NCBI GenBank assembly: GCA_034521445.1
Contig: JAXHMM010000005.1
Coordinates: 1 to 64,000, forward strand
DNA length: 64,000 bases
Direction of reading: 5' to 3'
Origin: Balneolaceae bacterium
Lineage (GTDB): Bacteria > Bacteroidota > Rhodothermia > Balneolales > Balneolaceae
The notes under the pieces were generated by a model that searched no databases, had not been told where the DNA came from, and worked only from the letters and a program-made list of their open reading frames with translations. Shown piece by piece: positions 14,901 to 49,256 of the stretch (its first letter is position 1; each line of letters begins with the position of its first letter). The translations under genes were made by a program, and so were the position numbers.

Positions 14901-17900
14901 CCGGCGCTGCCGAAGCGGAGGAGATGACCATCACCCAGCAGCCCACCGGCACAACCGCAGGGCAGTCTCTCTCCCCCTCGCCCACCGTGCTGCTGGAAGA
15001 CGCCCAGGGCAACCCGGTGGAGGGCGTGGACGTGACGGTGACCGTCAACCAGAACTCCTTCAGCGGGGGAAGCACGACTGTGGTGACCTCCAACGCCAGC
15101 GGGGAGGCTGTCTTCGATAATCTGAGTTTCCAGAACGCGGCCTCCGGCTACGAGCTTACTTTTAATGCCGACGCGAACCTGGTAGACAACAAGACCTCCA
15201 ACTCTTTTACCATCAGCGCCGCGGCAGCCAGCCAGATGAGTATCACGCAGCAGCCTCCCTCTTCGGCGACCGCCGGCGCCACACTGAATCCGGCGCCCAA
15301 GGTCACCCTCACCGACGCCTACGGCAACGTAAAATCGGGCGAGAACGTGACGGTCTCCCTCAATAAGAACAGCTTCTCCTCGGGTACACTGACCCGCACC
15401 ACCAACAGTTCAGGGGTGATCACCTTTTCGGGACTGGTCATCACCGCTGCCGCCTCGGGCTACAAAATCGTATTCGACGCCGCCGCCTCCGGCGTAGCCA
15501 ACAAGGAGTCCAATACCTTTACCGTCAACCCCGCCGCGGCCAGTACGGCCACCATCACCACCCAGCCCGGGGAATCGGTGACCACGGGCTCGGTCGAGGG
15601 GCCTCCGGCGGTCAAGATCACCGACACCTACGGCAACCCCATTTCAGGGGTTAATGTCACTGTTTCAGAGACCGGAGGCTACACCTTTGACGCAGGAACG
15701 CTGACCAGGGCAACCGGCTCAAACGGTATCGCCACCTTCAATGACCTGGAGATTCACAGCGCCGCCTCCGGCTACCAGCTTACCTTCGAACCGGCGCCGG
15801 GCAGCGTCTCCAGCCTCAACTCCAACACCTTTACCGTAGTAGAGCCCGCAGGCTCGATGACCATCGACGCCGAGCCGGGTCAGACCACCGCGGGACAGAC
15901 GCTGAGTCCCGCACCCTCGGTCACCCTGGTGGACGGCCAGGACAATCCCCTCCAAGGGGTAAACATTACCGTGAGCGTCAACCAGAACAGCTTTGCATCG
16001 GGGACCGTAACCGTGCAGACCAACAGTTCGGGCGTGGCCACCTTCAGCGACCTGGTGATCGAGGCGGCGGCCTCCGGCTACCAGATCACCTTCGATGCCG
16101 ACGAGACGGGAGTACCCAATGTGGTGACCAGCTCCTTCGAGGTGGTGGCGGCCAACGCCACCGCACTGAACATTACCACCCAGCCGGCCAACACCGAAAC
16201 GGGAAATACCCTGGAGGGTCCCCCTGCGGTGGTCCTGACCGACAACTTCGGCAACCCCGTGCAGGGCACCAATATTACGGTCAGCCTGAACAAGAACAGC
16301 TTCGATTCGGGCACCACCACCCTGGCGACGGACGGATCCGGTGAGGCGGTATTCGACGACCTGGTCATCTCCACTATCGCCACGGGCTACGAGCTCAGCT
16401 TTGACCCCGATGCCCAATACGTCTCCAATGCCCTCTCTGACGATTTTGACGTGACGGCAGGGGCGGCGGACGACCTGGAGATCACCACGCAACCCAGCGA
16501 ATCCACCTCCGACGTAACCATCTCCCCGGCCCCGGTGGTGCTGGTGACCGACGGCGGCGGCAACCCGGTTTCAGGAATAAATGTGAGCGTCAGTCTGAAC
16601 AAGAGCAACTTTACGGGAGGAAGCACTACCGTAGCCACCAGCGACGCCAGCGGCGAGGCCGTTTTCAACAACCTGAGCATCAGCACGGCCGACACAGGCT
16701 ACGAATTGAGTTTCAGCACCACCGGCCTCACCTCAGTCACCTCCGACGCCTTTGAAGTGGTGCAGCCCAATCCGCCCTTCGGCAGCATTCGCCTGCAGTA
16801 CCGGAACAATGCAACCAACACCACCAGCGAGACCATCCAGCCCTGGATCAAGATTTTCAACGACAGCAACCTGGACATCAACCTAAGCGACCTGACCGTG
16901 CGCTACTGGTTTACCTCCGAACCTGCCGGATCGGATGAGTATGTGGTAGACTTCGCCGAGATGACCAACGACGAAAGCAACTTCAGCGGATCCTTCAATA
17001 CCGAGGAGGGGCGCTACTTTCTGGAAGTCGGTTTCGACTCGGATATCGTGGTGCCTATCGGACTGGGCGGCGACGGAAGCACGCCCAACCTCTTTCCCGC
17101 CTCGGCCTCCACGGGCGGCATCCAGCAGCGCATTCACGACGACAATTTCCAGAATTACGACCAGAGCGACGACTATTCCTTCAATCCCACCATCACCAAC
17201 TACTCCGACTTCGACTCCATCAACGTCTACTACAAGGGACAGTTGATCTGGGGCGACGCACCGCCCATGACCGAGACCTATTACAGCCGGCAGACCGGCA
17301 GCTGGGGCAACGCCACCAACTGGTCCACTGTCAGCCACACTGGCGCCGTGGCCACCGTGCCTCCGGGCCCCGAGGACGAGGTGATCATCGGCAGCGGACA
17401 CAAGATTACCCTGACCGACAACATAACCAACGATAATTCGGTCACCGTCTCCGGGACCGGCAAGCTCTACACGGGCAACTGGGTGCTGGACGGCACGGGA
17501 GATTTCGTACTGGAGCCAGACGGTACGCTGCAGGTGGGCTCAGTCAACGGAATCAACGCAAACATCTCCTCCGGCAGCATCCAGAGCGATGGCACGCGCA
17601 GCTACAGCGCTTCGGCCGATTACATCTTCCAGGCCGGGTCACCCCAGACCACCGGCGACGGGCTCCCCGCCACCCTGCAGGGCGATCTGACCATCGACAA
17701 TTCCACCGGCGTGACGGCCGACAAATCCTACGAGGTAAACGGCACGCTTTTCCTCAATAGCGGTCCCTTCATCTTCGAAGACGGCGACGAGCTGCTCGCC
17801 AACGACAAGACGGTCAGCTCAGGCGAGCTTACCTTCCGCCTGGAAGTGGACAGCCCGCGCGGCTACCGCCTGCTCTCCTCCCCCATTGACACCGATTTCG

Positions 17901-19285
17901 ATAACTTCCTGGACGGCGTACACACCCAGGGCTTCACCGGGGCGACCTACGGCACCAGCTACCAGCCCAACGTGCTCTGGTACGACGAAACCTACGAGGG
18001 TACCGACAACCAGCGCTGGCGGGCCCCCTCCAACATTACAGACGACGTGGGCACCGGCCGCGGCTACCACGTCTACATGTTCGGCGACATCCCATCCGAC
18101 AGCGACTACAACGACCCTTTCCCCTACACCCTGGAGGTGAACGGGCAGGAACACGAGGGACCGGTGGACCTGAATGTCACCTTCACGGCGGCCGCCGACA
18201 GCGGCTGGAACCTGGTGGGCAACCCCTACGGGGCCACGCTGGACTGGGAAGACGCCTCGTGGACCAAAACGAATATCGATCCCAACATTTACGTGTGGGA
18301 TCCCGCTACCAACCAGTACAAAACATGGAACGGCGCGGCCGGTGACATTACCGACGGACTCATCGCCCCCTTCCAGGGCTTCTGGGTGAAGGCCAACGAC
18401 ACCAATCCGCAGCTGGTGGCCAGCGAAAACGCCAAGACCACCGGCGGCGAGTTCATCGGAAGCGACCCGGCGGCGGGCGCGGAGCGGCCCGAGGTCCCCA
18501 GTATCAGCCTGCGCGCCTACCATTCGAAGAACCTGCAGTCTACCGTGCACTTCTCCTTTACCGAGGACGGCACGACCGAGCTCGACCGCATGGATGCCTA
18601 CAAGCTGCTCCCGCCTCCCAACGTCACCGACTACGTGGAGGCCTACTCGCGGGCAGAGAACCGCGAGCGCCTGGCCATCAGCAACCTGCCCCGCTGGTTC
18701 GGCAAGGTGATTGAAGTTCCCATCGAGGTAAATGCTTACCGCGACGGACAGCCCCTGGCCGACGAGCTCTGGCTGAAAGTAGACAAGGTACGCAACCTCC
18801 CCAACCACTGGGAAGCCGAGCTGGTGCACCAGGCCAGCGGGAAACGCATCGCCGTGAACAACCTCAGGGACTCCATCCGGGTTTCCCTTGAACACCTGGC
18901 CGGACAGCAGGCGCTGGCGGCCCCAGCCACGGGCGGCACCATCACCACCAACGACGAACGAAACCACGTTCGATTTACCCTGCGCATACAGTCCATCCAG
19001 GTCACCTCCGACTCCCCGCAGCAGTACGAGGTGGGCAACAACTATCCCAACCCCTTCTCGGAATCCACGAACCTGCGCTTCGGAACCCCGCGCGAGGGGC
19101 GCGTGCGCCTGCACGTTTACACCGTGATGGGACGGAAGGTCGAAACGCTGGTGGACGAGGTACTGCCGGCGGGCTACCATGAGGTGCCCTGGCGGCCGAG
19201 GGGACTCTCCAGCGGGGTCTACCTCATCGTGCTGGAATCGGAGCATGGCGCGGCCAGTGGCAAGGTGACCTACATCAAGCAATAA
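11957..19285 (+). CDS. Giant T9SS-exported protein with 3 CBM3 modules and 12 Ig-like repeats
   Basis: Predicted 2442-residue cell-surface or secreted protein. A signal peptide (residues 1 to about 28, MRSLTLLRTLVPLLALLFG...VYAQ) is followed by CBM3-like module 1 (about 32-191), six Ig-like repeats of about 100 residues (202-816), CBM3 2 (823-980), six more Ig-like repeats (990-1606), CBM3 3 (1611-1770), a beta-rich region (TYYSRQTGSWGNATNW..., GYRLLSSPI..., WNLVGNPYG...), and a type A T9SS sorting domain (about 2354-2442, YPNPFS ... GVYLIVLES). CBM3 modules bind cellulose or chitin in known proteins; no catalytic domain is visible, so the likely role is adhesion to polysaccharide or scaffolding. 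GTG at 11936 is an alternative start; ATG 11957 places the signal peptide properly. Confidence 0.85.
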   Translation: MRSLTLLRTLVPLLALLFGVSVGSVYAQPEDITLQYKNNNANNPTQSPQPHMRLINNGSSTLNLSDLTIRYWFTSEPSGQDVYALYSAAVGNGEVNGTFGTVNGQRYLEISFTSNAEIPGYLGGNGNPNDFPAGASTGNIQNSFHDDGWNNYDQSDDFSFDPNETSYPGNTTTANNTNITVYYQGSLVSGSGPPGTAQAEEMSITQQPTGGTAGQIFSPPPTVLLEDANGNPVEGVEVTVTLNQGSFAGGSTTILTTDASGEATFDDLSINTANTGYELTFDAAADLVSDEVSNSFSISAAAADQISISQQPPASTAAGQTLSSAPAVTITDAFGNPVSGSDITITLNKNSFASGTLTRSTNSSGVAAFNDLVITTKATGYKITFDPAAGGLSDRITGNFAITEAAASQMSVTTQPGESVTNGTVEGPPTVRVTDTYGNGISGVNVTVSETGGYTFDAGTLTRATGSNGFAAFDDLEIHTADTGYQLTFDASAGGVSNVNSNTFDVVSSGGSMTVNASPGQSIAGVTLSPSPQVTLEDDQGNPLSGVDITVTLNQNSFASGTLTRTTNGSGVATFNDLVVTAAESGYQITFDADQTGVANAYTSSFEVVAASASSMSMETQPVNTSSGSILGGPPAVTLVDTYGNPVSGVDITVTLNQNSFASGTTVVATDAGGEAEFNDLVISTADTGYELTFDADASGVSNVISNNFNVTAGSASNMSISQQPTQSTAGVTLSPAPAVTLTDGQGNPVQGVSVTVSLNKNSFSGGSTTVVNTNSSGVATFGNLKIGTAASAYQLTFSASGVSNAVSNTFNVVQPNPAFGSITVEYKNDNTSSTSQQLEPWMRLNNESNVDINLSDLTVRYWFTSEPPGQDVHVVDFAEMTNDDSNITGTFGTIDGNHFLEVGFDSDIVVPIGLGGDGSTPDLFPVNANTGAIQQRIHDDGFANYDQTNDYSYDATKTSYTEHDKITIYYKGSLVWGTPPSGAAEAEEMTITQQPTGTTAGQSLSPSPTVLLEDAQGNPVEGVDVTVTVNQNSFSGGSTTVVTSNASGEAVFDNLSFQNAASGYELTFNADANLVDNKTSNSFTISAAAASQMSITQQPPSSATAGATLNPAPKVTLTDAYGNVKSGENVTVSLNKNSFSSGTLTRTTNSSGVITFSGLVITAAASGYKIVFDAAASGVANKESNTFTVNPAAASTATITTQPGESVTTGSVEGPPAVKITDTYGNPISGVNVTVSETGGYTFDAGTLTRATGSNGIATFNDLEIHSAASGYQLTFEPAPGSVSSLNSNTFTVVEPAGSMTIDAEPGQTTAGQTLSPAPSVTLVDGQDNPLQGVNITVSVNQNSFASGTVTVQTNSSGVATFSDLVIEAAASGYQITFDADETGVPNVVTSSFEVVAANATALNITTQPANTETGNTLEGPPAVVLTDNFGNPVQGTNITVSLNKNSFDSGTTTLATDGSGEAVFDDLVISTIATGYELSFDPDAQYVSNALSDDFDVTAGAADDLEITTQPSESTSDVTISPAPVVLVTDGGGNPVSGINVSVSLNKSNFTGGSTTVATSDASGEAVFNNLSISTADTGYELSFSTTGLTSVTSDAFEVVQPNPPFGSIRLQYRNNATNTTSETIQPWIKIFNDSNLDINLSDLTVRYWFTSEPAGSDEYVVDFAEMTNDESNFSGSFNTEEGRYFLEVGFDSDIVVPIGLGGDGSTPNLFPASASTGGIQQRIHDDNFQNYDQSDDYSFNPTITNYSDFDSINVYYKGQLIWGDAPPMTETYYSRQTGSWGNATNWSTVSHTGAVATVPPGPEDEVIIGSGHKITLTDNITNDNSVTVSGTGKLYTGNWVLDGTGDFVLEPDGTLQVGSVNGINANISSGSIQSDGTRSYSASADYIFQAGSPQTTGDGLPATLQGDLTIDNSTGVTADKSYEVNGTLFLNSGPFIFEDGDELLANDKTVSSGELTFRLEVDSPRGYRLLSSPIDTDFDNFLDGVHTQGFTGATYGTSYQPNVLWYDETYEGTDNQRWRAPSNITDDVGTGRGYHVYMFGDIPSDSDYNDPFPYTLEVNGQEHEGPVDLNVTFTAAADSGWNLVGNPYGATLDWEDASWTKTNIDPNIYVWDPATNQYKTWNGAAGDITDGLIAPFQGFWVKANDTNPQLVASENAKTTGGEFIGSDPAAGAERPEVPSISLRAYHSKNLQSTVHFSFTEDGTTELDRMDAYKLLPPPNVTDYVEAYSRAENRERLAISNLPRWFGKVIEVPIEVNAYRDGQPLADELWLKVDKVRNLPNHWEAELVHQASGKRIAVNNLRDSIRVSLEHLAGQQALAAPATGGTITTNDERNHVRFTLRIQSIQVTSDSPQQYEVGNNYPNPFSESTNLRFGTPREGRVRLHVYTVMGRKVETLVDEVLPAGYHEVPWRPRGLSSGVYLIVLESEHGAASGKVTYIKQ
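12050..14422 (+). repeat. Higher-order repeat unit 1: CBM3 + six Ig-like repeats
   Basis: First copy of a composite unit inside the giant T9SS gene: one CBM3 module (12050 to about 12530) then Ig-like repeats 1-6 (from 12560). Each Ig repeat has the pattern ITQQP...GxPxSPxPxVxLxDxxGNPVxGVxVTVTLNxNSF...TxxSGxAxFxDLxI...GYxLTF. Repeat 3 differs from the others by a VSETGGYTFDAGTLTRATG segment. The distance to unit 2 is 2373 bases. Confidence 0.9.
14423..16786 (+). repeat. Higher-order repeat unit 2: CBM3 + six Ig-like repeats
   Basis: Second copy of the composite unit, 2364 bases long. Its six Ig repeats correspond one-to-one with those of unit 1, including the distinctive TGGYTFDAGT segment in repeat 3. 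The whole block was therefore duplicated, not single repeats. Confidence 0.9.
16787..17262 (+). repeat. Higher-order repeat unit 3, partial: CBM3 only
   Basis: Third CBM3 module without a following Ig block. About 50 bases starting at 17021 are identical to those starting at 14657 in unit 2, pointing to a recent duplication or gene conversion between units 2 and 3. Confidence 0.85.
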
Positions 19286-19461: not shown

Positions 19462-20025
19462 ATGTTAAATTACTACACGGCAAAAATAACGAGTTTTGCG
19501 ACGCTGAGGCACGCCTTGGGGGCGATCCTATTTATATTTTTGTTGCTGGCTGGATTCAGTTACACGACACATGCTCAGGACAATATCCCCCGTTCTTCCA
19601 GTGCTTCTGCCGAGGTATCTGCAAATATCCTGGAAATCAACATAACGCTGGTCACCTTGCGAGATATTCAATTTGACAGGGTGCAGCCCAGTCAAGGCAT
19701 TATATCGGTGAATCCCGTCAGTAATTCCAATGCCGGACTTATGATGGCGGACGGATCCCCCAACACCCCTATCAGCGTAAGATTCCAGCGGCAGGTTACC
19801 CTCGTACACCAAACAGGCGTGAACACCCTGCAGTTTGAATACCAGCTCTCGGGTTATTCGGAAAGAAACCAGTCTGCTTCGGAACTCGTCGCGGGCAATT
19901 CGCAGAACTTCCGTCTGAACGAGGATGGCGAATTCTACATATGGGTAGGAGGCCGGGTGGATATCACCAATGCAGTGAGCGGTAACTACGAAGGTGATTT
20001 AACCGTGGAGGTCGAATATATTTGA
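19462..20025 (+). CDS. DUF4402-type fimbrial subunit candidate 1
   Basis: A 187-residue secreted protein: signal peptide to about residue 38 (ILFIFLLLAGFSYTTHAQ), then one beta-rich domain. The segment DGEFYIWVGGRVDI followed by a terminal strand matches the DUF4402 family. The end, GNYEGDLTVEVEYI, has Gly at -14, Tyr at -12, alternating hydrophobics and a penultimate Tyr, the C-terminal signature by which PapD-type chaperones recognise pilins. No cysteine in the mature part. First gene of a rightward group; the next gene overlaps its stop by 4 bases. About 175 bases separate it from the giant T9SS gene. Confidence 0.75.
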   Translation: MLNYYTAKITSFATLRHALGAILFIFLLLAGFSYTTHAQDNIPRSSSASAEVSANILEINITLVTLRDIQFDRVQPSQGIISVNPVSNSNAGLMMADGSPNTPISVRFQRQVTLVHQTGVNTLQFEYQLSGYSERNQSASELVAGNSQNFRLNEDGEFYIWVGGRVDITNAVSGNYEGDLTVEVEYI

Positions 20026-20594
20026 GGTACTGCATATACCTGATATGCCTGTGCGTTCTGTGTATGCTGGCACCCAGCCAGGGTACAGCCCAGGAAATCG
20101 ATTTCAGTCAGTTTGGAAGTTACACGATTACCCTTGAACCCGTTCCGGGCTATGAATCCCTTGATTTTGGATCGGTAATCAACGGAGAGGGTAATGTTTC
20201 CGTTGACTTGGGTGACGATCCCGGAATGGCGGTACTCTCGATCACCGGTGTCAAATATCTGGACGTGGTGGTCACCATCACCAAACCTGACGCCCTTCTG
20301 CCTATCGACCCCGGTGTTACAGACGAAATTCCGTTCACCACCCTGGAAGCAGCATACGCCAACCACGGAGACAACGACTACCTCAAAGCCAAGATGATGG
20401 GAAACCTTCAAGCCCGATTCCCCATACTTGAGCGACAGTTTCTGCCACCCGGACCACCGCCGGATCCCCCCATTGAAGGGGTGTCACCTCCCTCGGAGAC
20501 TGCCTATATCTATTTATGGGGGAGTATAAATGTAGGCAACGTAGCTGCAGGAGACTATTCAGCCACCATTGACATCACCGTGGAATACAACTGA
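20022..20594 (+). CDS. DUF4402-like fimbrial subunit candidate 2
   Basis: A 190-residue secreted protein starting with TTG that overlaps the previous stop (TTGA), with signal peptide MRYCIYLICLCVLCMLAPSQ and a probable cleavage after GTAQ. The beta-rich domain contains LDFGSVINGEGNVSVDLG, a proline-rich loop (PPGPPPDPP, near residue 145) and YIYLWGSINVG. The C-terminus GDYSATIDITVEYN again has Gly -14, Tyr -12 and penultimate Tyr. Likely a minor subunit translated by coupling to the first. The function is inferred from the chaperone and usher genes downstream. Confidence 0.7.
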   Translation: MRYCIYLICLCVLCMLAPSQGTAQEIDFSQFGSYTITLEPVPGYESLDFGSVINGEGNVSVDLGDDPGMAVLSITGVKYLDVVVTITKPDALLPIDPGVTDEIPFTTLEAAYANHGDNDYLKAKMMGNLQARFPILERQFLPPGPPPDPPIEGVSPPSETAYIYLWGSINVGNVAAGDYSATIDITVEYN

Positions 20595-20601
20595 TCGTCC
20601 C

Positions 20602-21168
20602 ATGGCTGTTCCAAAGCGCATACGAACACATTCGAAGCGTCTGATTTTCCTTTGGATAGCAGCTTTTATGCTGGTATTGCTTCCCGCAGAAAAATCGGAG
20701 GCGCAATTCCTGCGCATCGTTATGGAAGTGGAACCGGAGCTCAGTGCCCAGACCCTGCAGCCCCTGGATTTTGGTCAGCTGTATCAGAACGCAGGCCCCA
20801 TCGAGGTTAATATGGGAGAGAATAATATGGGTATTTTCACCGTCATGGGATATCCGAACCAGAGCGTACGTGTATCTCTGCATAGCCCCGAGTTGCTTCG
20901 TCACGCCGACAGATCCTTTTCTGACAGCCTGAATATATCCATCCGTGCAGCCTACGCCAACCGTGGAGTAAACCGTATAGAAGACGCCCGTTTGTTTAAT
21001 GGAAATACAGCTCAATTTCAAATGATGGAGAGTACCGGGGGCCTTACTCCCACCCAGATGATGCAAAATGCCACCGCATATATATTTATTTTTGGAAGCA
21101 TATCGGTTGGCGATGTGCAGCCTGGTCATTACGATGGTATGGTCGTCATGGAAGTAGAATATCTTTAA
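20602..21168 (+). CDS. DUF4402-like fimbrial subunit candidate 3
   Basis: About 188 residues from ATG 20602, 7 bases after the previous stop; an in-frame start at 20569 would overlap it and lacks a signal peptide character. Signal peptide: LIFLWIAAFMLVLLPAEKSEAQ. Mature domain: LDFGQLYQNAGPIEVNMGENNMGIFTVMG and AYIFIFGSISVGDVQ, parallel to candidate 2 (LDFGSVINGEG..., AYIYLWGSINVGNVA), so the two are paralogues. The end GHYDGMVVMEVEYL carries Gly -14, Tyr -12 and penultimate Tyr. It precedes the chaperone gene. Confidence 0.72.
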   Translation: MAVPKRIRTHSKRLIFLWIAAFMLVLLPAEKSEAQFLRIVMEVEPELSAQTLQPLDFGQLYQNAGPIEVNMGENNMGIFTVMGYPNQSVRVSLHSPELLRHADRSFSDSLNISIRAAYANRGVNRIEDARLFNGNTAQFQMMESTGGLTPTQMMQNATAYIFIFGSISVGDVQPGHYDGMVVMEVEYL

Positions 21169-21260
21169 GTAAGGGGAAAAATTGTGCGATAACACTTGTT
21201 GAATCTTAGTTACGGAACCTATAATATGCTGTTCATTTTGAATATTTGGTCTTACGGTAC

Positions 21261-22097
21261 ATGAAAACAGTATCCAAATCCCTGCTCATAGTATTTTTGG
21301 CCACCCTTTTTGGGACTGTTCAGGGTACAGCTCAGATTACCATAGCTCCCACCACCCTGTATCTGGATGACCAGAACCGTTTCGGTACCATGCTTGTACT
21401 TAACGGTTCCAGCCAACCCCAGGAAGTAAGCATTGAATTTGAATTTGGTTATTTGGCGGCGGATTCAGCCGGAAATCCCGAAATGGTTTACGATGATTCG
21501 CTGGCGGCCTCCGAGAAGTCCGTCGCGGATCGCATTCTGGGCTTTCCCAGCAACTTTACCCTCCAGCCTAACCAACGCCAGGTGGTCAGATTGACCGTAC
21601 GCAATACCGGCAGCCTGGCCGACGGCACCTACTGGTCCCGCATACGGACTATTTCCAACCCTGTCAGCCCCTCCATTGAAGAGCAGACATCCGAGGGCAT
21701 CTCCGCGCAAATCAACTTCCGGTTTGAGCAGGTAACCACCGCCTTTTTTAAAAAAGGAAATGTCACAACCGGCCTGGATTTTGGTGAGAGCAACGTATCT
21801 ATTACTGACGATACCGGAATTATTCATACCCGGATGAGCCAGACCGGGAATTCCCCATACATCGGTACCATGAATCTTCGTATTCTCAACGAGCAAGGGG
21901 ACCTTGTAACCGAAAGCAGCAGCACCGTCGCCATCTATTTCACGACGCAGCGCCAGTTCCAGTTCGATGCCAGCGAGATGCCCCCCGGGACCTACACGGC
22001 CGAAATGGTCTTTGAGACCACCCGAACCTCCATTGATGATGCCGAAATGGTGCAGGCGAGCCCCATCAATCACACCGTTACCTTCCGTATGCAATGA
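21261..22097 (+). CDS. PapD-like periplasmic fimbrial chaperone (atypical)
   Basis: A 278-residue secreted protein, signal peptide MKTVSKSLLIVFLATLFGTVQGTAQ, then an Ig-like domain resembling pilus chaperones: ITIAPTTLYLDDQNRFGTMLVLNGSS (A/B strands), and FPSNFTLQPNQRQVVRLTVRN followed by DGTYWSRIRTI, matching the P-x-x-x-L-x-P-x-x-x-x-x-V/I-R pattern and strand E/F of the PapD family. A second beta domain follows. By eye the N-terminal Arg and the strand-G1 Lys that anchor subunit carboxylates in PapD are not evident (Thr-Thr and Gln/Val occupy the area). In the start choice, ATG 21261 is preferred to TTG 21246. It would chaperone the neighbouring DUF4402 subunits in the periplasm. Confidence 0.7.
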   Translation: MKTVSKSLLIVFLATLFGTVQGTAQITIAPTTLYLDDQNRFGTMLVLNGSSQPQEVSIEFEFGYLAADSAGNPEMVYDDSLAASEKSVADRILGFPSNFTLQPNQRQVVRLTVRNTGSLADGTYWSRIRTISNPVSPSIEEQTSEGISAQINFRFEQVTTAFFKKGNVTTGLDFGESNVSITDDTGIIHTRMSQTGNSPYIGTMNLRILNEQGDLVTESSSTVAIYFTTQRQFQFDASEMPPGTYTAEMVFETTRTSIDDAEMVQASPINHTVTFRMQ

Positions 22098-22162
22098 CTA
22101 CGGGCTTTTATTACTTAAAACCTGCATTTCCCCTTACAGGCTATCATAAAGGAATTTATTCG

Positions 22163-22169
22163 CCCCCCC
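22163..22169. repeat. C7 homopolymer upstream of subunit candidate 4
   Basis: Seven consecutive C bases about 120 bases before the ATG of the 22292 gene, in an otherwise AT-rich spacer. Possible slipped-strand site; no direct evidence of variation. Confidence 0.4.
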
Positions 22170-22291
22170 ATTAAAAATATTTAATTCACAATGCCGTGGA
22201 TTAAGGCATTTTAACTTTCTGGTATGCACGCCAATAGCTATTATTACGGGTGAAATTCTCCAACACTTCAAACCAATGCAAGGACAGAGTC

Positions 22292-22840
22292 ATGAAGAAA
22301 TTACTCACCATTACCTTTATTCTCCTGCTCTTCAGCTATTCCGGGGAAGTATTTGCCCAAGACAGCGACAATACAACCGCTGACGCCCGCGTACTCGCTG
22401 ATATCACCGTAACCGCTAACCGCGGCTTGAATTTCGGCGATCTCACCGCTACCGCGCAGACGCCTTCCATTTCACCGGGCGACGGAACGGACGATGCCCA
22501 GTTCGAAGTGGAAGCCGACGAATCCTCGAGCGTTACTCTTGAGTTCACGCAGCTACCCGAAGGAGCCAGTGGTGGCGACGGCAGTACTTTTACTTACTAT
22601 ATAGAAAACGGTGCCGGCGATGACATGGAAATGACCTTTGCCGCCACCGACGCCGCATGGACGAACAACGACACATTTACCGGCGAAACCTCCTTTGATC
22701 CGACGAGTGCCACTCCCACCGCCACCATTGACGGCGACGGAACCATCTACGTATGGCTCGGCGGTGACCTGGCTGTTACAAGTGGGCAAGCCTCAGGCGA
22801 CTACACCGGTACCATCACGCTGGAAGCCACCTACAACTAG
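22292..22840 (+). CDS. DUF4402-type fimbrial subunit candidate 4 (possible major subunit)
   Basis: A 182-residue secreted protein; ATG 22292 with AAGGA about 9 bases upstream, signal peptide MKKLLTITFILLLFSYSGEVFAQ. The mature part is acidic and rich in Thr, Gly and Asp (LNFGDLTATAQTPSISPGDG, DGDGTIYVWLGGDLAV), the standard DUF4402 layout. The end GDYTGTITLEATYN has Gly -14, Tyr -12 and penultimate Tyr. A separate AT-rich leader of about 190 bases and an immediately following strong terminator suggest a monocistronic, highly expressed unit, as for a major pilin; that is inference. Confidence 0.75.
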   Translation: MKKLLTITFILLLFSYSGEVFAQDSDNTTADARVLADITVTANRGLNFGDLTATAQTPSISPGDGTDDAQFEVEADESSSVTLEFTQLPEGASGGDGSTFTYYIENGAGDDMEMTFAATDAAWTNNDTFTGETSFDPTSATPTATIDGDGTIYVWLGGDLAVTSGQASGDYTGTITLEATYN

Positions 22841-22869
22841 TTCCCACTTTTCCCTTTGTACGCTTAAAA

Positions 22870-22898
22870 GAGCCGCCCCTGTGGGCGGCTCTTTTTTT
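22870..22898 (+). terminator. Strong intrinsic terminator
   Basis: GAGCCGCCC (22870-22878), loop CTGT, GGGCGGCTC (22883-22891), then seven T. A perfect 9-bp GC-rich stem just after subunit 4; the A-run before the stem extends pairing with the T-run, so it could also act leftward. Confidence 0.92.
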
Positions 22899-23056
22899 GT
22901 TTAGACGGTGGACCCTGCCGAAAGCCCCGCCCACCCCTCCAATCATAAAGCAATATAATGGTCTCCTTGGAAAAGGTGCGTTATATTGTCAGGGTTAGGG
23001 TTTATTTCCAGATGACCAGGTTGACAACTACCGTTTCCTTATACGGCGGCTTACCC

Positions 23057-26000
23057 ATGCGACTATTCGTACGCCCCATACTTGCGTCGGTACTGGGCAT
23101 GCTGTTGCTTTTGACAGCCATGCCGGAGGGGAAGCTGCATGCCGTCCCTGCAGCCCATGTCATGCAACAGTCGGACAGCCACGATCCCCAGGAAATATTT
23201 CTCTCGTTCAGCTACCGGGGCACCAAGAGCATGGTCATCACCGCTCTTTATCATAACGACCAGGTCTATCTGCCAGTAGGCGAGCTCTTCGACTTTCTGA
23301 TGATTCCCTACCACACCGATACGCAGTCGTTCGTGATCTCCGGCACCTACCTGTCGGAGAACCAGGACTATGAACTGCACTTTGATGCAGAAGGGGATCC
23401 GCGTGGCAGGGTGGGCGACCGTGAAGCCGCATTCGGTGGACAGGATTTTCTGATCGGTGAACTCGATTTCTACCTGTTGCCCAAGCATTTCGAGCAACTC
23501 TTCGGCCTGAACTTCACGGTCGACATGAATAATCTCACCCTTTCGTTGACGACCGACAACGTCCTTCCGATAATCCAGCAAATGGAGCGCCAGCGACGCA
23601 GAAACCAGATCACGGAACAGCGGGAGCGCTTTGATTACTACGACCTCGCCTTCGACCGGCAGCGCCACTTCCTGCGGGCCGGTTTCGCGGATTACGCTCT
23701 AAACACCACCCTGGATCCTACAGGCACCAACCAGTACAACTACACCCTGGATGTTGGAGGCGAGCTTCTCGGTGGAGACGTGCAGGGGGCGCTGTATGGC
23801 GGATATAACAGTTCCATCGGGTTTCAGAATTATTCGGACAATCTGCGCTGGCGCTTCGTACCGGGAAACCGAAACCTGGTTTCCAACATAAGCGTGGGAC
23901 AGATCCGTTCCGGAGGACTACTGACCAGCTCCAATTTCCGGGGCATCAGCATCTCCAACGAGGACATCCAGCCCCAAATCCTCTTTCAGGACTATGTAAT
24001 TGACGGCACGACCGTCCCTGAATCGGAAGTGGAGGTCTACCTTAACAACAGCCTGATCGCCTTTAAGACGGCTGATATGAGCGGTTACTACCGTTTTCAG
24101 ATTCCTATAACCTACGGTACGACCCAGTTGTCCCTCCGGATCTACAGGCCCGACGGTACCATTGAAACACGATCAGAACGTATACAAATACCCTATACCT
24201 ATCTCCGGCCGGGTCAGGTGCGCTACAATGCCAGCGCAGGCCTTGCGGAGAGCTCGCTGCTGGAGGACCAGGACCAGTATTTCCAGGGACAGGCCAATGC
24301 GGCCGTAGGTATAGCGTCGTGGCTCACCCTGCGCACAGGGATGGACTATCTGGAGGCTGACCCTGCCTTTCAACCCCTGCTATACAGCTCCCTTTCCACC
24401 CGGTTGGCCTCCAATTTCCTTTTTAATCTGGACCTGGCCCCCCAGGCCTATTACCGGGCAGACCTGAGTGCCGTGTATCCTTCCTCGGCCAGTCTGGGGG
24501 CCACGTACACCCATTACACGCGTGACCGCAGCCTCTTTAACCCAACCTCTATCCAGCGGATCTTTCAGGGCAATATCTACCTGCCTTTCGATCTATGGGG
24601 TACACCACTCAGCGCCCGCTTATTCGGCGGCTACCAGCAGAGTAGAACTACCGACCAGACGCAATACCGGCTTGACCTGTCAGGACGCTTCGGGCGTATG
24701 AACGTACGACTTTCCATCCGGGACCGTCAGAACGGTGCGGTCAGGCCCGAGTTTTCAAATCGTGCCAATGTCAGCGCCACCGCATCCTACGTTTTTCCCC
24801 GCGGTCCCGCCACAGCCGGATTGCTGAAAGGGCTCTACTTGCGATCCCAAATGGATTACAATCCCCACCTAAATCGTATCACGCAGGCCTCCACGCAAAT
24901 CTCCAAGGAACTCGGACAAAATCTGCGATTCCAGGTCTCCATGGGACAGAACTTTCTTACCAATTCGCTGTCGGGCTACGTAAACCTGACCTTTGAGCTC
25001 AACCGGGTACGCGCCACGTCCACGGCCCGCATGGCCCGCAACAGCGTACAGTTCTCCCAGAATCTGAGCGGATCGGTGGGATATGACGGCAATTACAAGG
25101 AGCTATACTTCACAAACCGGCGCCAGGTCGGACAGTCGGCTGCCTCAGTGCGACTGTTTCTGGACGAGAACGACTCCGGAACCTACAACGAAGGCGAAGA
25201 GATTCTTCCCTACAACGCTGTTCGACTGCAGCGCTCCGGGCGCACCCAGCTCGAGGAGGACGGCATCATCCGCGTGACACAGCTCCAGTCCTACTACCGG
25301 CACAACATGGAGATCAACTACGCGGCGCTGCAAAATCCAACATACGTTCCAAAATTTGATGAGTTTTCCTTTATAGCCGACCCCAACCAGTTTAAGCCCA
25401 TAGACATTCCCTTCTATATCACGGGCATCCTGGAGGGCATGGTCTACCGGCAGCAGGATTCCGGACAGCGTCAGCCGGCGGCCGGCGTTCGCATCTATAT
25501 GATTTCGGAGGATGGGGAGTTTGAAAAAACCTTCAATACCTTTTCCGACGGTTCCTTCTATACCTACGAGGTCCCGCCCGGGGAGTATGACATGTTCATC
25601 GATCCTGCGCAGCTGCAGCGCCTGGGCGCTGAAGCGGTCCCGGACACCATCGATCTTAAAGTGGAGTCGGTGGAGGGCGGCGATTATATTTCGGGATTGG
25701 AGTTTACCATCGTCCCCGAAGGTACTGGCCGCCCTGAAGTCATCACGGCCGCCGACCAGGATACCGCAATGGACAAACAGGGATTATCCCCGCTGGATGT
25801 ATACGGGGAATACAACCACAGTGTGCAGCTGGCTAGTTTTTCAAATTTTGAAAACGCTGACCGGGCCCTGGCCACCGCCCGTGAACAATTCAACATCCCA
25901 CTGACGGTCAGTCACACAAATGATCTCTATGCCTTGCGGACCCATCCCATTCAAAACCGGCAGCAAGCCATCACCCTGCTTCACCGAATAGCTGACAGCC

Positions 26001-26614
26001 AGTTCAGCCAACCGGTCCTGGTCCTTACGCGCAATGGGAATACCGCGATGCAGAAGGGTGCGGACCCATCAGAAACCCGAGAGGTCGTCAGCGAGGTCTA
26101 TTCTCTGCAGATAGGTGCTTTCAGCAGAAAGCAGAGCGCACAGCAATTCGTCTCCGGGTCGGAGAACCCGCTGGGCGAACCGGCCTCGGTTGTTTTCGAT
26201 TCCACACGCGGCCTTTACAAGGTATATGCCAACAGCCATCCCTTTGATTCACTGGAGAGGGCCCGCAATGCCCTGACAGATCTGCGCAGCCGGCCAGCGT
26301 TCGACAACGCTTTTATTGACCGGCGAACCGTACGCAGGAAGATTGCGGCTGAGCATTCTTCCCAGGATCCTGACCGAAGCTTTACTTACGAGGTGCACAT
26401 ACAGGGGGTGAGTGACATCTCCCGTGAGCGATTTCTGAGTGAGGCCATAACGAGCAATTTCAATCTCCTCAGCAACGGTCCCAAAGAAGAGCTGGTTGTT
26501 TTTCAGGATATTCCCGACTGGCAGACGGCAGTGGACCTAATCGGTAAATTGCGTCGCATTGCAGGAATGGGCCAACCTTTCATCGTGCTGCTCGAGACTG
26601 ACAATGGGGAATAG
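23057..26614 (+). CDS. Usher-like outer-membrane protein fused to SPOR-like repeats
   Basis: About 1185 residues from ATG 23057 (signal MRLFVRPILASVLGMLLLLTAMPEGKLHA; an ATG at 22958 gives an unlikely leader). The N-terminal domain (VYLPVGELFDFLMIPY..., DFYLLPKHFEQLFGLNFTVD) resembles usher N-domains. A long barrel region follows (ISVGQIRSGGLLTSSNFRGISISN; DYVIDGTTVPESEVEVYLNN as plug-like segment; IPYTYLRPGQVRYNASAGL), all features of PapC/FimD-type ushers. After the barrel come a Ca-binding-like SdrD_B/CNA-type stretch (VRLFLDENDSGTYNEGEE) and a carboxypeptidase-regulatory-like domain (PAAGVRIYMISEDGEF). Three SPOR-like repeats end it, from about residues 915 (VQLASFSNFENADRALA), 1013 (YSLQIGAFSRKQSAQQF) and 1109. 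SPOR domains bind denuded peptidoglycan. It would secrete and assemble the subunits encoded on either side. Confidence 0.72.
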   Translation: MRLFVRPILASVLGMLLLLTAMPEGKLHAVPAAHVMQQSDSHDPQEIFLSFSYRGTKSMVITALYHNDQVYLPVGELFDFLMIPYHTDTQSFVISGTYLSENQDYELHFDAEGDPRGRVGDREAAFGGQDFLIGELDFYLLPKHFEQLFGLNFTVDMNNLTLSLTTDNVLPIIQQMERQRRRNQITEQRERFDYYDLAFDRQRHFLRAGFADYALNTTLDPTGTNQYNYTLDVGGELLGGDVQGALYGGYNSSIGFQNYSDNLRWRFVPGNRNLVSNISVGQIRSGGLLTSSNFRGISISNEDIQPQILFQDYVIDGTTVPESEVEVYLNNSLIAFKTADMSGYYRFQIPITYGTTQLSLRIYRPDGTIETRSERIQIPYTYLRPGQVRYNASAGLAESSLLEDQDQYFQGQANAAVGIASWLTLRTGMDYLEADPAFQPLLYSSLSTRLASNFLFNLDLAPQAYYRADLSAVYPSSASLGATYTHYTRDRSLFNPTSIQRIFQGNIYLPFDLWGTPLSARLFGGYQQSRTTDQTQYRLDLSGRFGRMNVRLSIRDRQNGAVRPEFSNRANVSATASYVFPRGPATAGLLKGLYLRSQMDYNPHLNRITQASTQISKELGQNLRFQVSMGQNFLTNSLSGYVNLTFELNRVRATSTARMARNSVQFSQNLSGSVGYDGNYKELYFTNRRQVGQSAASVRLFLDENDSGTYNEGEEILPYNAVRLQRSGRTQLEEDGIIRVTQLQSYYRHNMEINYAALQNPTYVPKFDEFSFIADPNQFKPIDIPFYITGILEGMVYRQQDSGQRQPAAGVRIYMISEDGEFEKTFNTFSDGSFYTYEVPPGEYDMFIDPAQLQRLGAEAVPDTIDLKVESVEGGDYISGLEFTIVPEGTGRPEVITAADQDTAMDKQGLSPLDVYGEYNHSVQLASFSNFENADRALATAREQFNIPLTVSHTNDLYALRTHPIQNRQQAITLLHRIADSQFSQPVLVLTRNGNTAMQKGADPSETREVVSEVYSLQIGAFSRKQSAQQFVSGSENPLGEPASVVFDSTRGLYKVYANSHPFDSLERARNALTDLRSRPAFDNAFIDRRTVRRKIAAEHSSQDPDRSFTYEVHIQGVSDISRERFLSEAITSNFNLLSNGPKEELVVFQDIPDWQTAVDLIGKLRRIAGMGQPFIVLLETDNGE

Positions 26615-26665
26615 CCTCCATTCCCACCCAGCATATAATCAGACCTGAGTCTGTCGTTCAAACAC

Positions 26666-27085
26666 CTAATTGTACTCGATGGTAGCCATCAATTCTCCCC
26701 TGCTGTCTGTCCGTCCTGTGCTGTGGTCACTAATCCTCTCCGGCAGAATATCGTAGGTGGCGCTTCCCCCAAGCTCAACCATCGTATGGGAAATCAAATT
26801 TCCATGGATCATCTGTCCCGTATCGCTGCGAAGGGCCAGGGGTCCAGTGATCTTCAGGCTTAAAATTGCATAATCGATAGAGGGGAGCAATAGCCTGCCA
26901 AAGGAAGTAGTTAGATCAACGTCATCCCTGAAAGTTGTGTCGGGGAAGGTCACCGTGACAGGCTCCGGAGCAGGAAGCACACGTGCTGTTACTTTCATGG
27001 TGGCGGAATCGTAACCCTGGGCCCATACTATGGAGGGCAAAGATGGCACCATCACCAAGAATAATATTGCGATAAAACGCGTCAT
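26666..27085 (-). CDS. Small secreted fimbrial subunit candidate 5
   Basis: 139 residues with signal peptide MTRFIAILFLVMVPSLPSIVWAQ. The mature part is a short beta-rich domain ending GELMATIEYN: penultimate Tyr, alternating hydrophobics and Gly at -10 like the other subunits, but Thr instead of Gly at -14. It is the last gene of a leftward group and ends 52 bases from the usher stop (convergent). No database family recognised. Assignment as a subunit rests on the C-terminal pattern and location. Confidence 0.55.
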   Translation of the reverse strand: MTRFIAILFLVMVPSLPSIVWAQGYDSATMKVTARVLPAPEPVTVTFPDTTFRDDVDLTTSFGRLLLPSIDYAILSLKITGPLALRSDTGQMIHGNLISHTMVELGGSATYDILPERISDHSTGRTDSRGELMATIEYN

Positions 27086-27135
27086 GTAATTGCTCGTAGG
27101 CGGGGGATGAATGTGTCAATCCCAATGTATTAACT

Positions 27136-27153
27136 TTTTCTAATATTAGAAAA
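27136..27153. promoter_or_regulatory. 18-bp perfect palindrome, candidate operator
   Basis: TTTTCTAAT followed directly by ATTAGAAAA, in an AT-rich spacer about 50 bases upstream of the start of the 26666-27085 gene. The half-site ATTAGAA recurs, in the opposite arrangement, in the palindrome at 27218-27252. Confidence 0.5.
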
Positions 27154-27217
27154 TATTAATATTATATATACCAGTCCTATTCAAGCAATATCGTATCTTG
27201 ATGTGTTTAAGCTTCGT

Positions 27218-27252
27218 TTTTACATATATTAGAATTTCTAATTTATGTAAAA
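27218..27252. promoter_or_regulatory. 35-bp near-perfect AT palindrome
   Basis: Two arms of 17 bases around a central T at 27235 pair at 16 positions (the only mismatch is T27227/T27243). The core is ATTAGAA-T-TTCTAAT, flanked by TACATA and TATGTA. It lies between the T9SS gene and subunit 5. It may be an operator for a dimeric regulator or a hairpin ending the T9SS transcript; no T-tract follows on the minus strand. Confidence 0.5.
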
Positions 27253-27260
27253 TTACATTT

Positions 27261-27268
27261 GGGGGGGG
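27261..27268. repeat. G8 homopolymer (C8 on the minus strand)
   Basis: Eight consecutive G, 8 bases beyond the 35-bp palindrome and about 175 bases upstream of the start of subunit 5. Possible slipped-strand site affecting expression; variation not shown. Confidence 0.45.
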
Positions 27269-27293
27269 TAATGGAATAAGGTAAGAAGGGAAG

Positions 27294-28151
27294 TCAGCGA
27301 ACCAGGGTGAGCTCCTGTGAAAGTACAAAGCGGCTTCCGTCAGAACCCAGGGCCTCGAGGCGGTATATATACAACCCGCTGGCCTGATCGCGCGGACGCC
27401 AACGGACGGTATGTACACCGGGGGATATAACCTCTCGGTCCACAAGGCGAATCACTTCCCGTCCGAGCAGATCGTAGACCGTGATTCGTACCCTGGCCCG
27501 TACAGGAATCCAGAACTCGATGGTCGTCTCCTGATGAAATGGATTCGGATAATTCTGTTTGAGATCGTAGACCTTGCCGGGTACCCCCTCCACAGGAAGC
27601 ACATCCAATCGAAAAACCTCCTCATCGGATAGTCCTTCGGGATCCTCGACGAAGAGACGAACCGGGATGTCACTGGCGAAGAAGAGGCGCGTAGTAGAAA
27701 AGGTCAATATTCGAGTTTCTTCGTCCAGATCCACCTTCAGGTAGTGGTCACTCTCCGTATCTGGGTTATCCAAGAAGCGCTCATCCAGCACTTGCACTTC
27801 CCATTCCAGTTGATCGATGGTCTCCGCCTCATCGCTAACAAGTGTATCGAGCGCGACCCTGAGCGTATCAATCTGGTAAAAACTCAATACCTCCAGGTCG
27901 TCAATCTCAGGCGCCCGGATATGTGCGGTAGCCCTCGCCGGTCCATATCCAACATCCAAGGTGAGGGTACCCGGAGCTGTAGCTATTTCTTTCTGAGATT
28001 CAGGGGCGTCCTGCCCCACCGCAGTTGCAGACAAGGCCGTTTCCAGCAGCACCAGAGCCGCGCTCATGAATAAATACTTCAGCGTAGATACCGTTGGAAT
28101 CTGTCGGGTGCCCCATCCCGGAAACTGCCATGGATGCATGTGCCGTTGCAT
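27294..28151 (-). CDS. Small T9SS-sorted surface protein
   Basis: 285 residues. A hydrophobic signal-like stretch lies at residues 25-46 (LKYLFMSAALVLLETALSATAVGQ); the true start could be an internal Met nearer to it (codons 5 or 29). The middle is one beta-rich domain of about 150 residues with no family recognised (RLFFASDIPVRLFVEDPEGLSDEEVFRLDVLPV resembles Ig/cadherin-like strands). The end is a type A T9SS sorting domain: YDLKQNYPNPFHQETTIEF ... VYDLLGREV ... SGLYIYRLEA. Its place inside the fimbria-like locus suggests a surface-attached partner, but that is guesswork. It follows the SPOR lipoprotein gene by 62 bases. Confidence 0.75.
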   Translation of the reverse strand: MQRHMHPWQFPGWGTRQIPTVSTLKYLFMSAALVLLETALSATAVGQDAPESQKEIATAPGTLTLDVGYGPARATAHIRAPEIDDLEVLSFYQIDTLRVALDTLVSDEAETIDQLEWEVQVLDERFLDNPDTESDHYLKVDLDEETRILTFSTTRLFFASDIPVRLFVEDPEGLSDEEVFRLDVLPVEGVPGKVYDLKQNYPNPFHQETTIEFWIPVRARVRITVYDLLGREVIRLVDREVISPGVHTVRWRPRDQASGLYIYRLEALGSDGSRFVLSQELTLVR

Positions 28152-28213
28152 TAGTTCAGGAGTGTTTCTGTAGAGTATCGTTCAAAATAATCACCATGTT
28201 GAAGCGGGAAGTT

Positions 28214-29857
28214 TTAGGGGGAGGAAGGTGATACTTCACTCACAAGAATGATCTCTGTCCTTAGCGAAGGAAAACGGTCCTCCGATATCTCGGCCTGCTG
28301 TCGCAACGGTCCCCAATCGGTACTCATATAACCAAGTATTACCCTTGATTTTTCACCCAGATAGTGCCAGAGTTGAAGGTTCCAATCCACCCGGGGCTGC
28401 CATACCCGGTATTGGGACAGGCCCTCCTCAAGGGTCTCATAATTTCCAAGCTGCAACAGATACCGGTACGTCGGCCGGTACGTACGGGGGGGCTCTCCTC
28501 GCGCCACAAACATTTCAGCCCCGATCCCTGCATTCTGAAGCTCGTCCAGAGCCTGCTCCGCCTCAAGTATGGAGTCATAAGTCCTGCTTCGAACGCGGTA
28601 CACATCGCCCTCATCAGACCGCTGAATCTGCAAGGCTGTCCCGTGACGCCGATTAACATTATCAACGTAATTGCGGGCTCGCAGACTGTCTCCGAAGGCG
28701 GCAACCTGCACCTGATAGGGTATAGGAGTCGCTTCACTTCCCTCACAAGACTGGTATACCATGGCATCCTCAAATTCTTCGGCTTCCCGCACCTCAGCCA
28801 AAAACTCCAGGCTTTCGGCCAGACTGCCCCGCTCCGATGTTCTTACGACATAGAGCATCCGGACGGAATCCAGGTAAATCCGGGGATATTCTCCTGTAAG
28901 ATCCGACAAGGTCCTGACGGCCTGCAATGCGTTTGAATAGGATTCGTAGCCTCCAACCTGCACGCTGAATACACATGATGACTCATAGAGTGTATCCACC
29001 CTTACGGAGGAGTGAGGCATCTCTCCTTCACGTCCGGTACTATCCTCCTCGGCTTCTTCCTTGCCACGCTTGACCTCCACTATCTGTGGCGGAACATCTG
29101 CCTCGGGGGGCTGCGGTTCCTCCACACTACCAATCCCGTCGCGTCGTCCTCCCATGCGAATGTTTAACCCTATCGAAAATTCCATATAGTCATGGTCATA
29201 CCCCTTTCCCCGAACGGGAATTTCGTTTAGCATGCGCACGCCCCCCGCGTTGACCTGTAAATGTACGTCAGTGTTGAACTGAATTTCAAAGCCCACGCCA
29301 AAAGAGAATTTCGGGGTCACGCCATCGTCCAGGGAAAAGAACGACGAGGCCGGCAGTTTGCCTCCCAGATTTCCAGTGCGGGGATCGGGGTCGGGTCTCT
29401 CCTCCACCGTTTGATGAATCAGGACGCCTGTTCCCATATAGGCGTATGGAGAAATGGCCTCCCCCCTATTCTTACCTGCTGACAGCACCGGAAGAAGGCG
29501 GACGTTAAGGCGGTACTCCAGGGGAATCAGCCGGGCTTCCCCACCCCTGCTGTTTACCGTGCCTATGGAGGCGCGTGCTTCCCCAAAAAGATCTCCCGCA
29601 AAATTATGCCGCGCCTGTATGCCGAACAGGACGTTTGAGCCCGTCAGGCCAGTGAATACGCTCCCGGTTCCGGGTACACCCCCGAGGAAGACTCCAAGGG
29701 ATCGTTCCGATTGAACACCTCCGAGTGTATCGCGTTGGGTCGAGGATCGATCCGATACGGCCTGATCCTGAAGCGTGTGTGAAGAGGCCCCGGTCGGCGC
29801 CACGCAACCCAGCACAACCAGTAATCCTGTAACCAGGAAAAAAAGCCTCAGCTTCAT
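28214..29857 (-). CDS. Beta-barrel lipoprotein with three SPOR-like repeats
   Basis: 547 residues from ATG 29857. The signal peptide has a lipobox LVVLGC (Cys18). Residues about 45-245 look like an outer-membrane beta-barrel (GVFLGGVPGTGSVFTGL, YAYMGTGVLIHQ, FSFGVGFEIQFNTDVHLQVNAGG, YMEFSIGLNIRMGG). An acidic/proline linker follows, then three SPOR-like repeats: CVFSVQVGGYESYSNALQA, YQVQVAAFGDSLRARNYVD and YRYLLQLGNYETLEEGLSQ. The number and type of SPOR repeats mirror those at the end of the usher across the convergent junction. A role in anchoring the assembly platform to peptidoglycan is plausible but unproven. Confidence 0.72.
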   Translation of the reverse strand: MKLRLFFLVTGLLVVLGCVAPTGASSHTLQDQAVSDRSSTQRDTLGGVQSERSLGVFLGGVPGTGSVFTGLTGSNVLFGIQARHNFAGDLFGEARASIGTVNSRGGEARLIPLEYRLNVRLLPVLSAGKNRGEAISPYAYMGTGVLIHQTVEERPDPDPRTGNLGGKLPASSFFSLDDGVTPKFSFGVGFEIQFNTDVHLQVNAGGVRMLNEIPVRGKGYDHDYMEFSIGLNIRMGGRRDGIGSVEEPQPPEADVPPQIVEVKRGKEEAEEDSTGREGEMPHSSVRVDTLYESSCVFSVQVGGYESYSNALQAVRTLSDLTGEYPRIYLDSVRMLYVVRTSERGSLAESLEFLAEVREAEEFEDAMVYQSCEGSEATPIPYQVQVAAFGDSLRARNYVDNVNRRHGTALQIQRSDEGDVYRVRSRTYDSILEAEQALDELQNAGIGAEMFVARGEPPRTYRPTYRYLLQLGNYETLEEGLSQYRVWQPRVDWNLQLWHYLGEKSRVILGYMSTDWGPLRQQAEISEDRFPSLRTEIILVSEVSPSSP

Positions 29858-30045
29858 CAATTGATAGCCAATTCGGGTTGCACAGTTACTCAGATCGGCC
29901 GGCGACGGGGCCGTCCGGGACCATACCGCCGGGCCAAGGCAGTATAAGAAAGCCTCTGCAATGTTATGTACTAATCTTCAGGGATCACCGTGGATGGGAA
30001 AAGAAATGACCTGAGTCAACGGTTAAAAGAACCAGGTAGCCTCCC

Positions 30046-30468
30046 TCAGTTGTAGACAATAGTGGCGGTCAGGCTGCCGCTGTAGCGTCCAACCCCTTTC
30101 TGCACCATTCTTCCGCGAAGAATATCGAGTACCGGCCTTCCCTGACGGTCCATACGGGGCACCGTCCGTACGTCCAGTTTCATCCGGCGGCCCTGGTCAT
30201 CCCCCAACTCCATGCTCTTGGCAAGGTCCAGATGGTATGAACTGCGGGGTTTCTTATCCATTACCAGGCGTCCCAGCAAAATTTCAGGTGCCAGACTGTT
30301 CATGCTGCCGGGATTATAATTCGTTTGAGCTGTCTCCAACAGGAGCGAAGGAGGCGATTTGACGATCATCACCCGGACGTTCATGACGGCAGTAAGCACC
30401 CGTTGTGCCTGAGAGGGGTTCGCGCATGCGAGGAGCATCCCCGTAAGAAATAGCAAAACTCGTCTCAT
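30046..30468 (-). CDS. Small secreted fimbrial subunit candidate 6
   Basis: 140 residues, signal peptide MRRVLLFLTGMLLACANPSQAQ (an alternative reading is a lipobox LLAC with Cys15). The short beta-rich mature domain ends GRYSGSLTATIVYN, with Gly -14, Tyr -12, Gly -10 and penultimate Tyr exactly as in subunits 1-4. First gene of the leftward group 30468 to 26666, with 188 bases before the SPOR lipoprotein gene. Confidence 0.62.
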   Translation of the reverse strand: MRRVLLFLTGMLLACANPSQAQRVLTAVMNVRVMIVKSPPSLLLETAQTNYNPGSMNSLAPEILLGRLVMDKKPRSSYHLDLAKSMELGDDQGRRMKLDVRTVPRMDRQGRPVLDILRGRMVQKGVGRYSGSLTATIVYN

Positions 30469-49245: not shown

Positions 49246-49256
49246 AAAATAAGTAG

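Follow-up and report, generated by a model that had tools for sequence, protein, structure and literature searches.

A putative chaperone-usher fibre locus with a SPOR-domain usher and a type IX secretion partner in a Balneolaceae bacterium

Introduction

The window considered here is a stretch of 64,000 nucleotides (nt) from a Balneolaceae bacterium (positions 1 to 64,000 of the forward strand of contig JAXHMM010000005.1, assembly GCA_034521445.1), and its plus strand carries between positions 19462 and 26614 a run of genes in which three assigned to subunits come first, followed by those for a chaperone, one further subunit and, last, an usher. We read this locus, with a probability of roughly 0.85, as coding for a surface fibre system of the chaperone-usher type that belongs to a divergent and unrecognised clade, with an usher that bears SPOR domains and a protein of the type IX secretion system (T9SS) as partner. 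The reading is based on the predicted folds of the chaperone and of one subunit, the profile kinship of the usher, the C-terminal signature of the pilins and the operon-like gene order. An earlier note, made from the sequence of the window, had proposed a chaperone-usher-like fimbria; the chaperone fold, the usher profile and the co-occurrence of the genes support it, and all ten open reading frames (ORFs) that it listed were found with the positions and strands given there. If the reading is correct, a function as chaperone-usher pilin is indicated for DUF4402, and the chaperone-usher pathway extends to a part of the Bacteroidota and their relatives, where it was recognised neither by Pfam nor in the public annotations seen. 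Moreover, it would represent a chaperone-usher platform that carries fused peptidoglycan-binding domains and whose locus also encodes a T9SS surface protein.

Chaperone and usher

The product of the gene at 21261..22097 (plus strand) is assigned as a periplasmic chaperone with two immunoglobulin (Ig) domains and a PapD fold on the basis of AlphaFold2, Foldseek, VIA-align and the adjacency to the usher. By sequence it gives a PapD_N match below the Pfam threshold (E 0.053), and hhalign of the chaperone profile to Escherichia coli chaperones reaches 89.8%. The AlphaFold2 model, which was built from 35 relatives and has a predicted local distance difference test (pLDDT) score of 93.1, predicts the two-Ig PapD-type fold, in line with the PapD-like chaperone called at this position before. 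In Foldseek searches of the model against the PDB the WxLIP, CfaA, CsuC, FimC and EcpB chaperones rank together, and VIA-align yields Z scores of 13-14.5 to WxLIP, YadV, Caf1M, FimC and CsuC. The model is least confident at residues 141-150, which directly precede the strand predicted as the last one of domain 1; free chaperones carry a flexible loop before this strand.

The gene at 23057..26614 (plus strand) encodes a predicted outer-membrane usher, followed by a C-terminal carboxypeptidase-regulatory-like part and by SPOR domains at the C-terminus (Pfam). The product clears the Pfam Usher model with 33.2 bits (cut-off 27.1 bits). A profile made of 39 usher sequences aligns by hhalign to five E. 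coli ushers with a probability of 98.2% (E 6e-14, 554 columns), while the control barrels LptD and FhuA, each as a single sequence, reach 0.1% and 0.2% against the same profile; when FimD is likewise used as a single sequence, the value is 76%. The usher-like barrel of the earlier note would accordingly be an usher by profile, with clean negative controls. Matches by hhalign to the archaic usher and chaperone of Palleronia are weak (65.5% and 23.8%, single sequences) and the usher is therefore not assigned to any chaperone-usher clade. Four of the 39 usher relatives show a match to Cu_amine_oxidN1. The SPOR domains are a variant feature of the usher and would tie its platform to peptidoglycan.

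Subunits

As proposed before, there are six small secreted subunit candidates, four on the plus strand and two on the minus strand. The former are encoded at 19462..20025 (subunit 1), at 20022..20594 (subunit 2, overlapping subunit 1 by 4 nt), at 20602..21168 (subunit 3, whose frame is open from 20569 and has its first ATG at 20602) and at 22292..22840 (subunit 4, with the start placed at 22292 in a frame open from 22250). The DUF4402 cut-off of 25.2 bits is cleared by one of them, the 22250-22840 product (33.3 bits), and missed by 0.1 bit by the 19462 product (25.1 bits), the 20022 and 20569 products being weaker. Two short subunit-like proteins on the minus strand (26666..27085 and 30046..30468) have no DUF4402 match in Pfam, so that by this cut-off the earlier assignment of the subunits to DUF4402 stands for one protein and nearly for a second. 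The subunits below the cut-off, the minus-strand pair included, are still akin to the others by profile, motif or synteny, with profile kinship found for subunits 2 and 3.

A pilin C-terminal signature, consisting of Gly at position -14 and Tyr at position -2, is present in 66 of 113 subunits compared to 4 of 795 other ORFs. In the window Tyr -2 occurs in 6/6 subunits and both residues in 5/6, the protein without Gly -14 being the 26666 product. When the subunits are compared by hhalign with the E. coli Fim subunits, the alignment is limited to the last 38 columns. The 26666 gene is convergent with the usher gene, and its product was assigned by its place and sequence pattern, which are those of short convergent subunits right after the usher in the loci L032, L037 and L038. 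The 30046 product is of the same short type, aligns with the other short ones and may be linked to the fibre; for both proteins a role as minor subunits is the likeliest guess.

For the 22292 subunit, the AlphaFold2 model (pLDDT 85.4) finds its best PDB matches by Foldseek in CfaB, CsuA/B, Caf1, FimA, the pilin domain of PapG and CupE, and chaperone-usher pilins fill nearly all of the best 50 rows. It aligns to truncated FimG from residue 35 through the C-terminus, and the aligned start leaves approximately 12 residues after the signal peptide, which is the length absent from truncated FimG. The model predicts that the Ig fold is incomplete, stopping at strand F, and that an N-terminal extension precedes it. 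The subunit model is as close to Caf1 as to FimA or CsuA/B, and all window subunits are single-domain, none of them having the two-domain layout of an adhesin. Both points would suit a chaperone-usher system whose product, as in the case of Caf1, is a non-fimbrial coat or a layer resembling a capsule instead of a visible adhesive pilus. We consider this unlikely, though still a serious alternative, given that the loci carry several different subunits, four in most of them, and not one, and that some relatives possess subunits of 270-340 amino acids (aa) which could be tip adhesins.

Another explanation regards the subunits as cargo of the T9SS or as pilins of the FimA/Mfa type and gives the usher-like barrel some other purpose. 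Two window proteins with T9SS tails, described below, lend it some weight. In the subunits themselves, however, Pfam and NCBIfam reveal neither a T9SS tail nor a FimA/Mfa match; their signal peptides end in A-Q without a lipobox, they end in the pilin C-terminal signature, and we hold this explanation to be highly improbable. Searches with Pfam also gave no PF00419 subunit in the window and no spore-coat-U (PF05229) match among the window subunits, with one sub-threshold PF05229 match in a distant relative.

Proposed assembly and weighing of the evidence

From fold, motif and gene order we infer that the fibre is made by donor strand exchange, a mechanism described for chaperone-usher pili (PMC4654587). 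The subunits would reach the periplasm by the Sec pathway, where the 21261 chaperone would lend a strand to each incomplete Ig fold (donor strand complementation). The 23057 usher may then replace the chaperone strand with the N-terminal extension of the subunit that follows, extruding the polymer, while its SPOR domains would anchor the platform on peptidoglycan. The T9SS protein encoded from 11936 would reach the surface by a separate route, and there it may act as an adhesin or partner.

Several observations weigh against the chaperone-usher assignment. The VIA-align Z scores of the subunit model are modest (mostly 6-8, up to 8.2), the N-terminal ~140 residues of the usher, where the domain that takes in chaperone-subunit complexes would be expected, do not align to FimD by hhalign, and the presumed nature of the 23057 product as an outer-membrane usher with a plugged 24-strand barrel is drawn from the profile comparison. 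The usher and subunit profiles found no clearly significant pilus protein among PDB sequences, and the chaperone profile found no significant pilus chaperone there, WxLIP alone being near significance; it was because of these results that a comparison of folds was needed. The models of chaperone and subunit are, furthermore, predictions of single chains. The chaperone resembles WxLIP, a Gram-positive protein with no usher partner, as much as it resembles CsuC or FimC, and WxLIP is its top structural match in Foldseek and VIA-align. This would be expected if the locus encoded a WxL/WxLIP-like surface complex, with the Ig protein serving the small proteins as a structural partner and not as a transient chaperone of assembly, and with a barrel that merely exports them. 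Such a complex appears quite improbable, since the chaperones of chaperone-usher systems lie within 1 Z unit of WxLIP, the subunits match pilins and the profile comparison identifies the partner as an usher.

Distribution and relation to known systems

In a phylum sample of 296 genomes, a homologue of the usher was found in 62, including 32 of the 36 genomes of the same family; the four same-family genomes without it all belong to one genus. The Pfam Usher model is above its cut-off in 1/296 genomes compared to the 62 with a homologue, and the family has therefore stayed hidden from annotation. DUF4402 occurs in 47 genomes, and every one of them also has the usher (47/47). The chaperone gene is the direct upstream neighbour of the usher gene in 115 of 123 loci (two sets combined, with some genomes in both), and the two genes often overlap by 4 nt; most of the other eight loci end at the edge of the contig or locus. 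Chaperone, subunits and usher thus adjoin across the phylum, as the fimbria proposal implies for related genomes. The order subunits, chaperone, usher prevails in most relatives, whereas the window places its fourth subunit between chaperone and usher.

A contig search with 14 ushers as query set gave named records from Gracilimonas, Balneola, Aliifodinibius/Fodinibius, Rhodohalobacter, Cecembia and Aquiflexum, and the usher also occurs in metagenome-assembled genomes of Neomarinimicrobiota, Ignavibacteriae and Bacteroidales. The module also occurs in Pseudomonadota: the Pseudoalteromonas xiamenensis plasmid NZ_CP099918.1 (L082) carries it as SPOR - DUF4402 - DUF4402 - chaperone - usher - SPOR, its members being named hypothetical or carboxypeptidase-regulatory-like in the record, and a Novosphingobium plasmid (L083), whose record is without annotation, gives the same profile matches for DUF4402, chaperone and usher. 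These plasmid loci share the DUF4402, chaperone-type and usher-type genes with the present system, in Pseudoalteromonas with SPOR proteins alongside, but they have no T9SS protein and their SPOR domains are on separate proteins.

The published range of chaperone-usher systems comprises the Proteobacteria and, for the archaic clade, also Cyanobacteria and Deinococcus-Thermus (PMC4654587). Among the open-access papers searched none names DUF4402, and no relevant open-access paper was found on chaperone-usher systems in Bacteroidetes, Balneola or Salinibacter, preprints and most subscription journals lying outside the search. That the locus is undescribed, as the earlier note supposed, is thus plausible, as no open-access description was found, but not proven.

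The archaic (sigma) pili, such as Csu of Acinetobacter baumannii and CupE of Pseudomonas aeruginosa, resemble the present system in the folds of chaperone and subunit, which match CsuC, CsuA/B and CupE, and in the common gene order subunits-chaperone-usher; one distant family of the present system places a subunit of ~290 aa after the usher, as is the case for CsuE. They differ by having spore-coat-U subunits where DUF4402-type subunits occur here, the one archaic usher and chaperone that were compared directly give weak profile matches, and the SPOR domains and the T9SS partner belong to the present system. In CsuC, the carboxylate anchor is formed by Arg89/Arg174/Tyr196 (PMC4654587). The classical pili of Enterobacteria (type 1, Yeh, Yra) are similar in the profiles of usher and chaperone and in the pilin C-terminal signature; however, the N-terminal domain of the window usher is unaligned, nearly all of its relatives stay below the Pfam Usher cut-off, and PF00419 is absent here. 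Among the alternative (alpha) pili, CFA/I provides with CfaB the best Foldseek match of the subunit, and CfaA and EcpB are among the chaperone matches, whereas the EcpC usher gives a profile match of 72% over 200 columns. The FimA/Mfa (type V) pili of Bacteroidales are likewise surface fibres of Bacteroidota, but no FimA/Mfa match occurs here; their subunits are lipoproteins, and they have neither chaperone nor usher.

Two observations concern other relatives. Single ORFs of 1002-1169 aa in L068:10489-13998 and L070:9007-12015 match both subunit and chaperone profiles and are possible subunit-chaperone fusions. In 23 loci, pairs of pilin-like proteins with a single transmembrane segment, one of them with DUF4900, precede the fibre subunits (e.g., L041:1-4320 and L033:1554-3292).

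The probable T9SS partner

Directly upstream of subunit 1 lies a gene of the plus strand (11936..19285) for a surface protein of 2449 aa, which was missed when the start of the gene set was first drawn and which is kept at this place in relatives. Its product contains three CBM3 and several Big_1/Ig-like repeats (Pfam) and ends in a marginal type A T9SS tail (TIGR04183 23.8 bits, cut-off 23 bits; Pfam PF18962 below cut-off). This sorting domain, together with a T9SS in the genome, suggests that the protein is a T9SS substrate. Relatives of its C-terminal ~520 aa were found in 53 ORFs among the fetched loci, and in 49 loci this part lies upstream of the subunits, often overlapping the first one by 4 nt. 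Because of this conserved position, the single strong copy of the protein in its own genome and the presence of SprA there, the 11936 product is likely a component of the chaperone-usher system. The T9SS partner is a variant feature of the system.

Motor-linked sister loci

In 27 of the fetched loci (L033, L039, L041, L042, L044, L049 and 21 more) the ORF after the usher encodes a protein in which a signal peptide, a periplasmic part and a transmembrane helix precede FliG domains; its distance from the usher is -44 to +171 nt in 27/27. Where the contig is long enough, genes for a TPR lipoprotein, MotA and MotB (with plug, OmpA and often SPOR) then follow. The FliG-domain protein matches E. coli FliG with 97% (hhalign), and in one scanned example FliG N, M and C are each above the Pfam cut-off. 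Its close homologues in the 296 genomes lie directly behind the usher in 14/14 cases, and FlhA, the flagellar export gate, is absent from 11 of the 14 motor-linked genomes, including the single-contig genome G191 of the same family. The motor residues are kept, namely Asp32 of MotB in 16/16, Arg281 of FliG in 18/18, and Pro173, Thr209 and Pro222 of MotA in 17/17 sequences. Usher SPOR domains and the usher-linked motor exclude each other, SPOR being found on 0/22 unique ushers of motor-linked loci and on 38/90 others (Fisher p 4e-5, a value inflated by shared ancestry). The window usher has no motor genes beside it; FliG, MotA and FlhA of its genome lie together on another contig, as in a flagellar cluster.

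The boldest reading of these loci, to which we give about an even chance, is that the chaperone-usher fibres of this clade can couple to an ion-driven and possibly rotary motor of the inner membrane, the SPOR usher of the window being a motor-less variant. Such coupling is a lead from sister loci outside this window and is suggested by conserved gene order and motor residues. The role of rotor proteins in bacteria without a flagellar filament is an open question (PMC12199754), and if the reading is true, such proteins may serve to power or steady a machine of the chaperone-usher type. No relevant open-access paper was found on FliG together with an usher.

A FliF-FliG fusion was also considered, as the N-terminal part of the FliG-domain protein looks like the C-terminal part of FliF by eye and in a sub-threshold Pfam match; hhalign to FliF reaches 6.9% and the fusion is not claimed. 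Motor modules without an usher, which are a second non-flagellar FliG/MotAB machine, occur at L169:9347-14404, L171:8684-13737 and L170:5156-10402, and in them a ~365-aa protein without a Pfam family adjoins the FliG or lipoprotein gene. In the distant family mentioned above (L069:1589-4808 and L071:9438-11331), the genes after the usher are those for the ~290-aa subunit, for an ExbB-type protein and for proteins with sub-threshold similarity to ExbD.

Neighbouring genes of the window

Of the ten genes in the original set, about eight are upheld, and the two that are probably not part of the system lie on the minus strand between the short subunit genes. The first (27294..28151) encodes a small protein with a T9SS tail (TIGR04183 27.5 bits, cut-off 23 bits) and, outside this tail, has no relative in any fetched usher locus. 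The second (28214..29860) encodes a barrel and SPOR lipoprotein whose SPOR part alone finds relatives, none of the fetched usher loci having one for the N-terminal barrel half. The SPOR proteins that follow the ushers of sister loci were rejected as its relatives, being MotB-type. Elsewhere in the window, a transfer-messenger RNA gene is located at 49254-49621 on the minus strand, with the tag DTNYSYSLAA.

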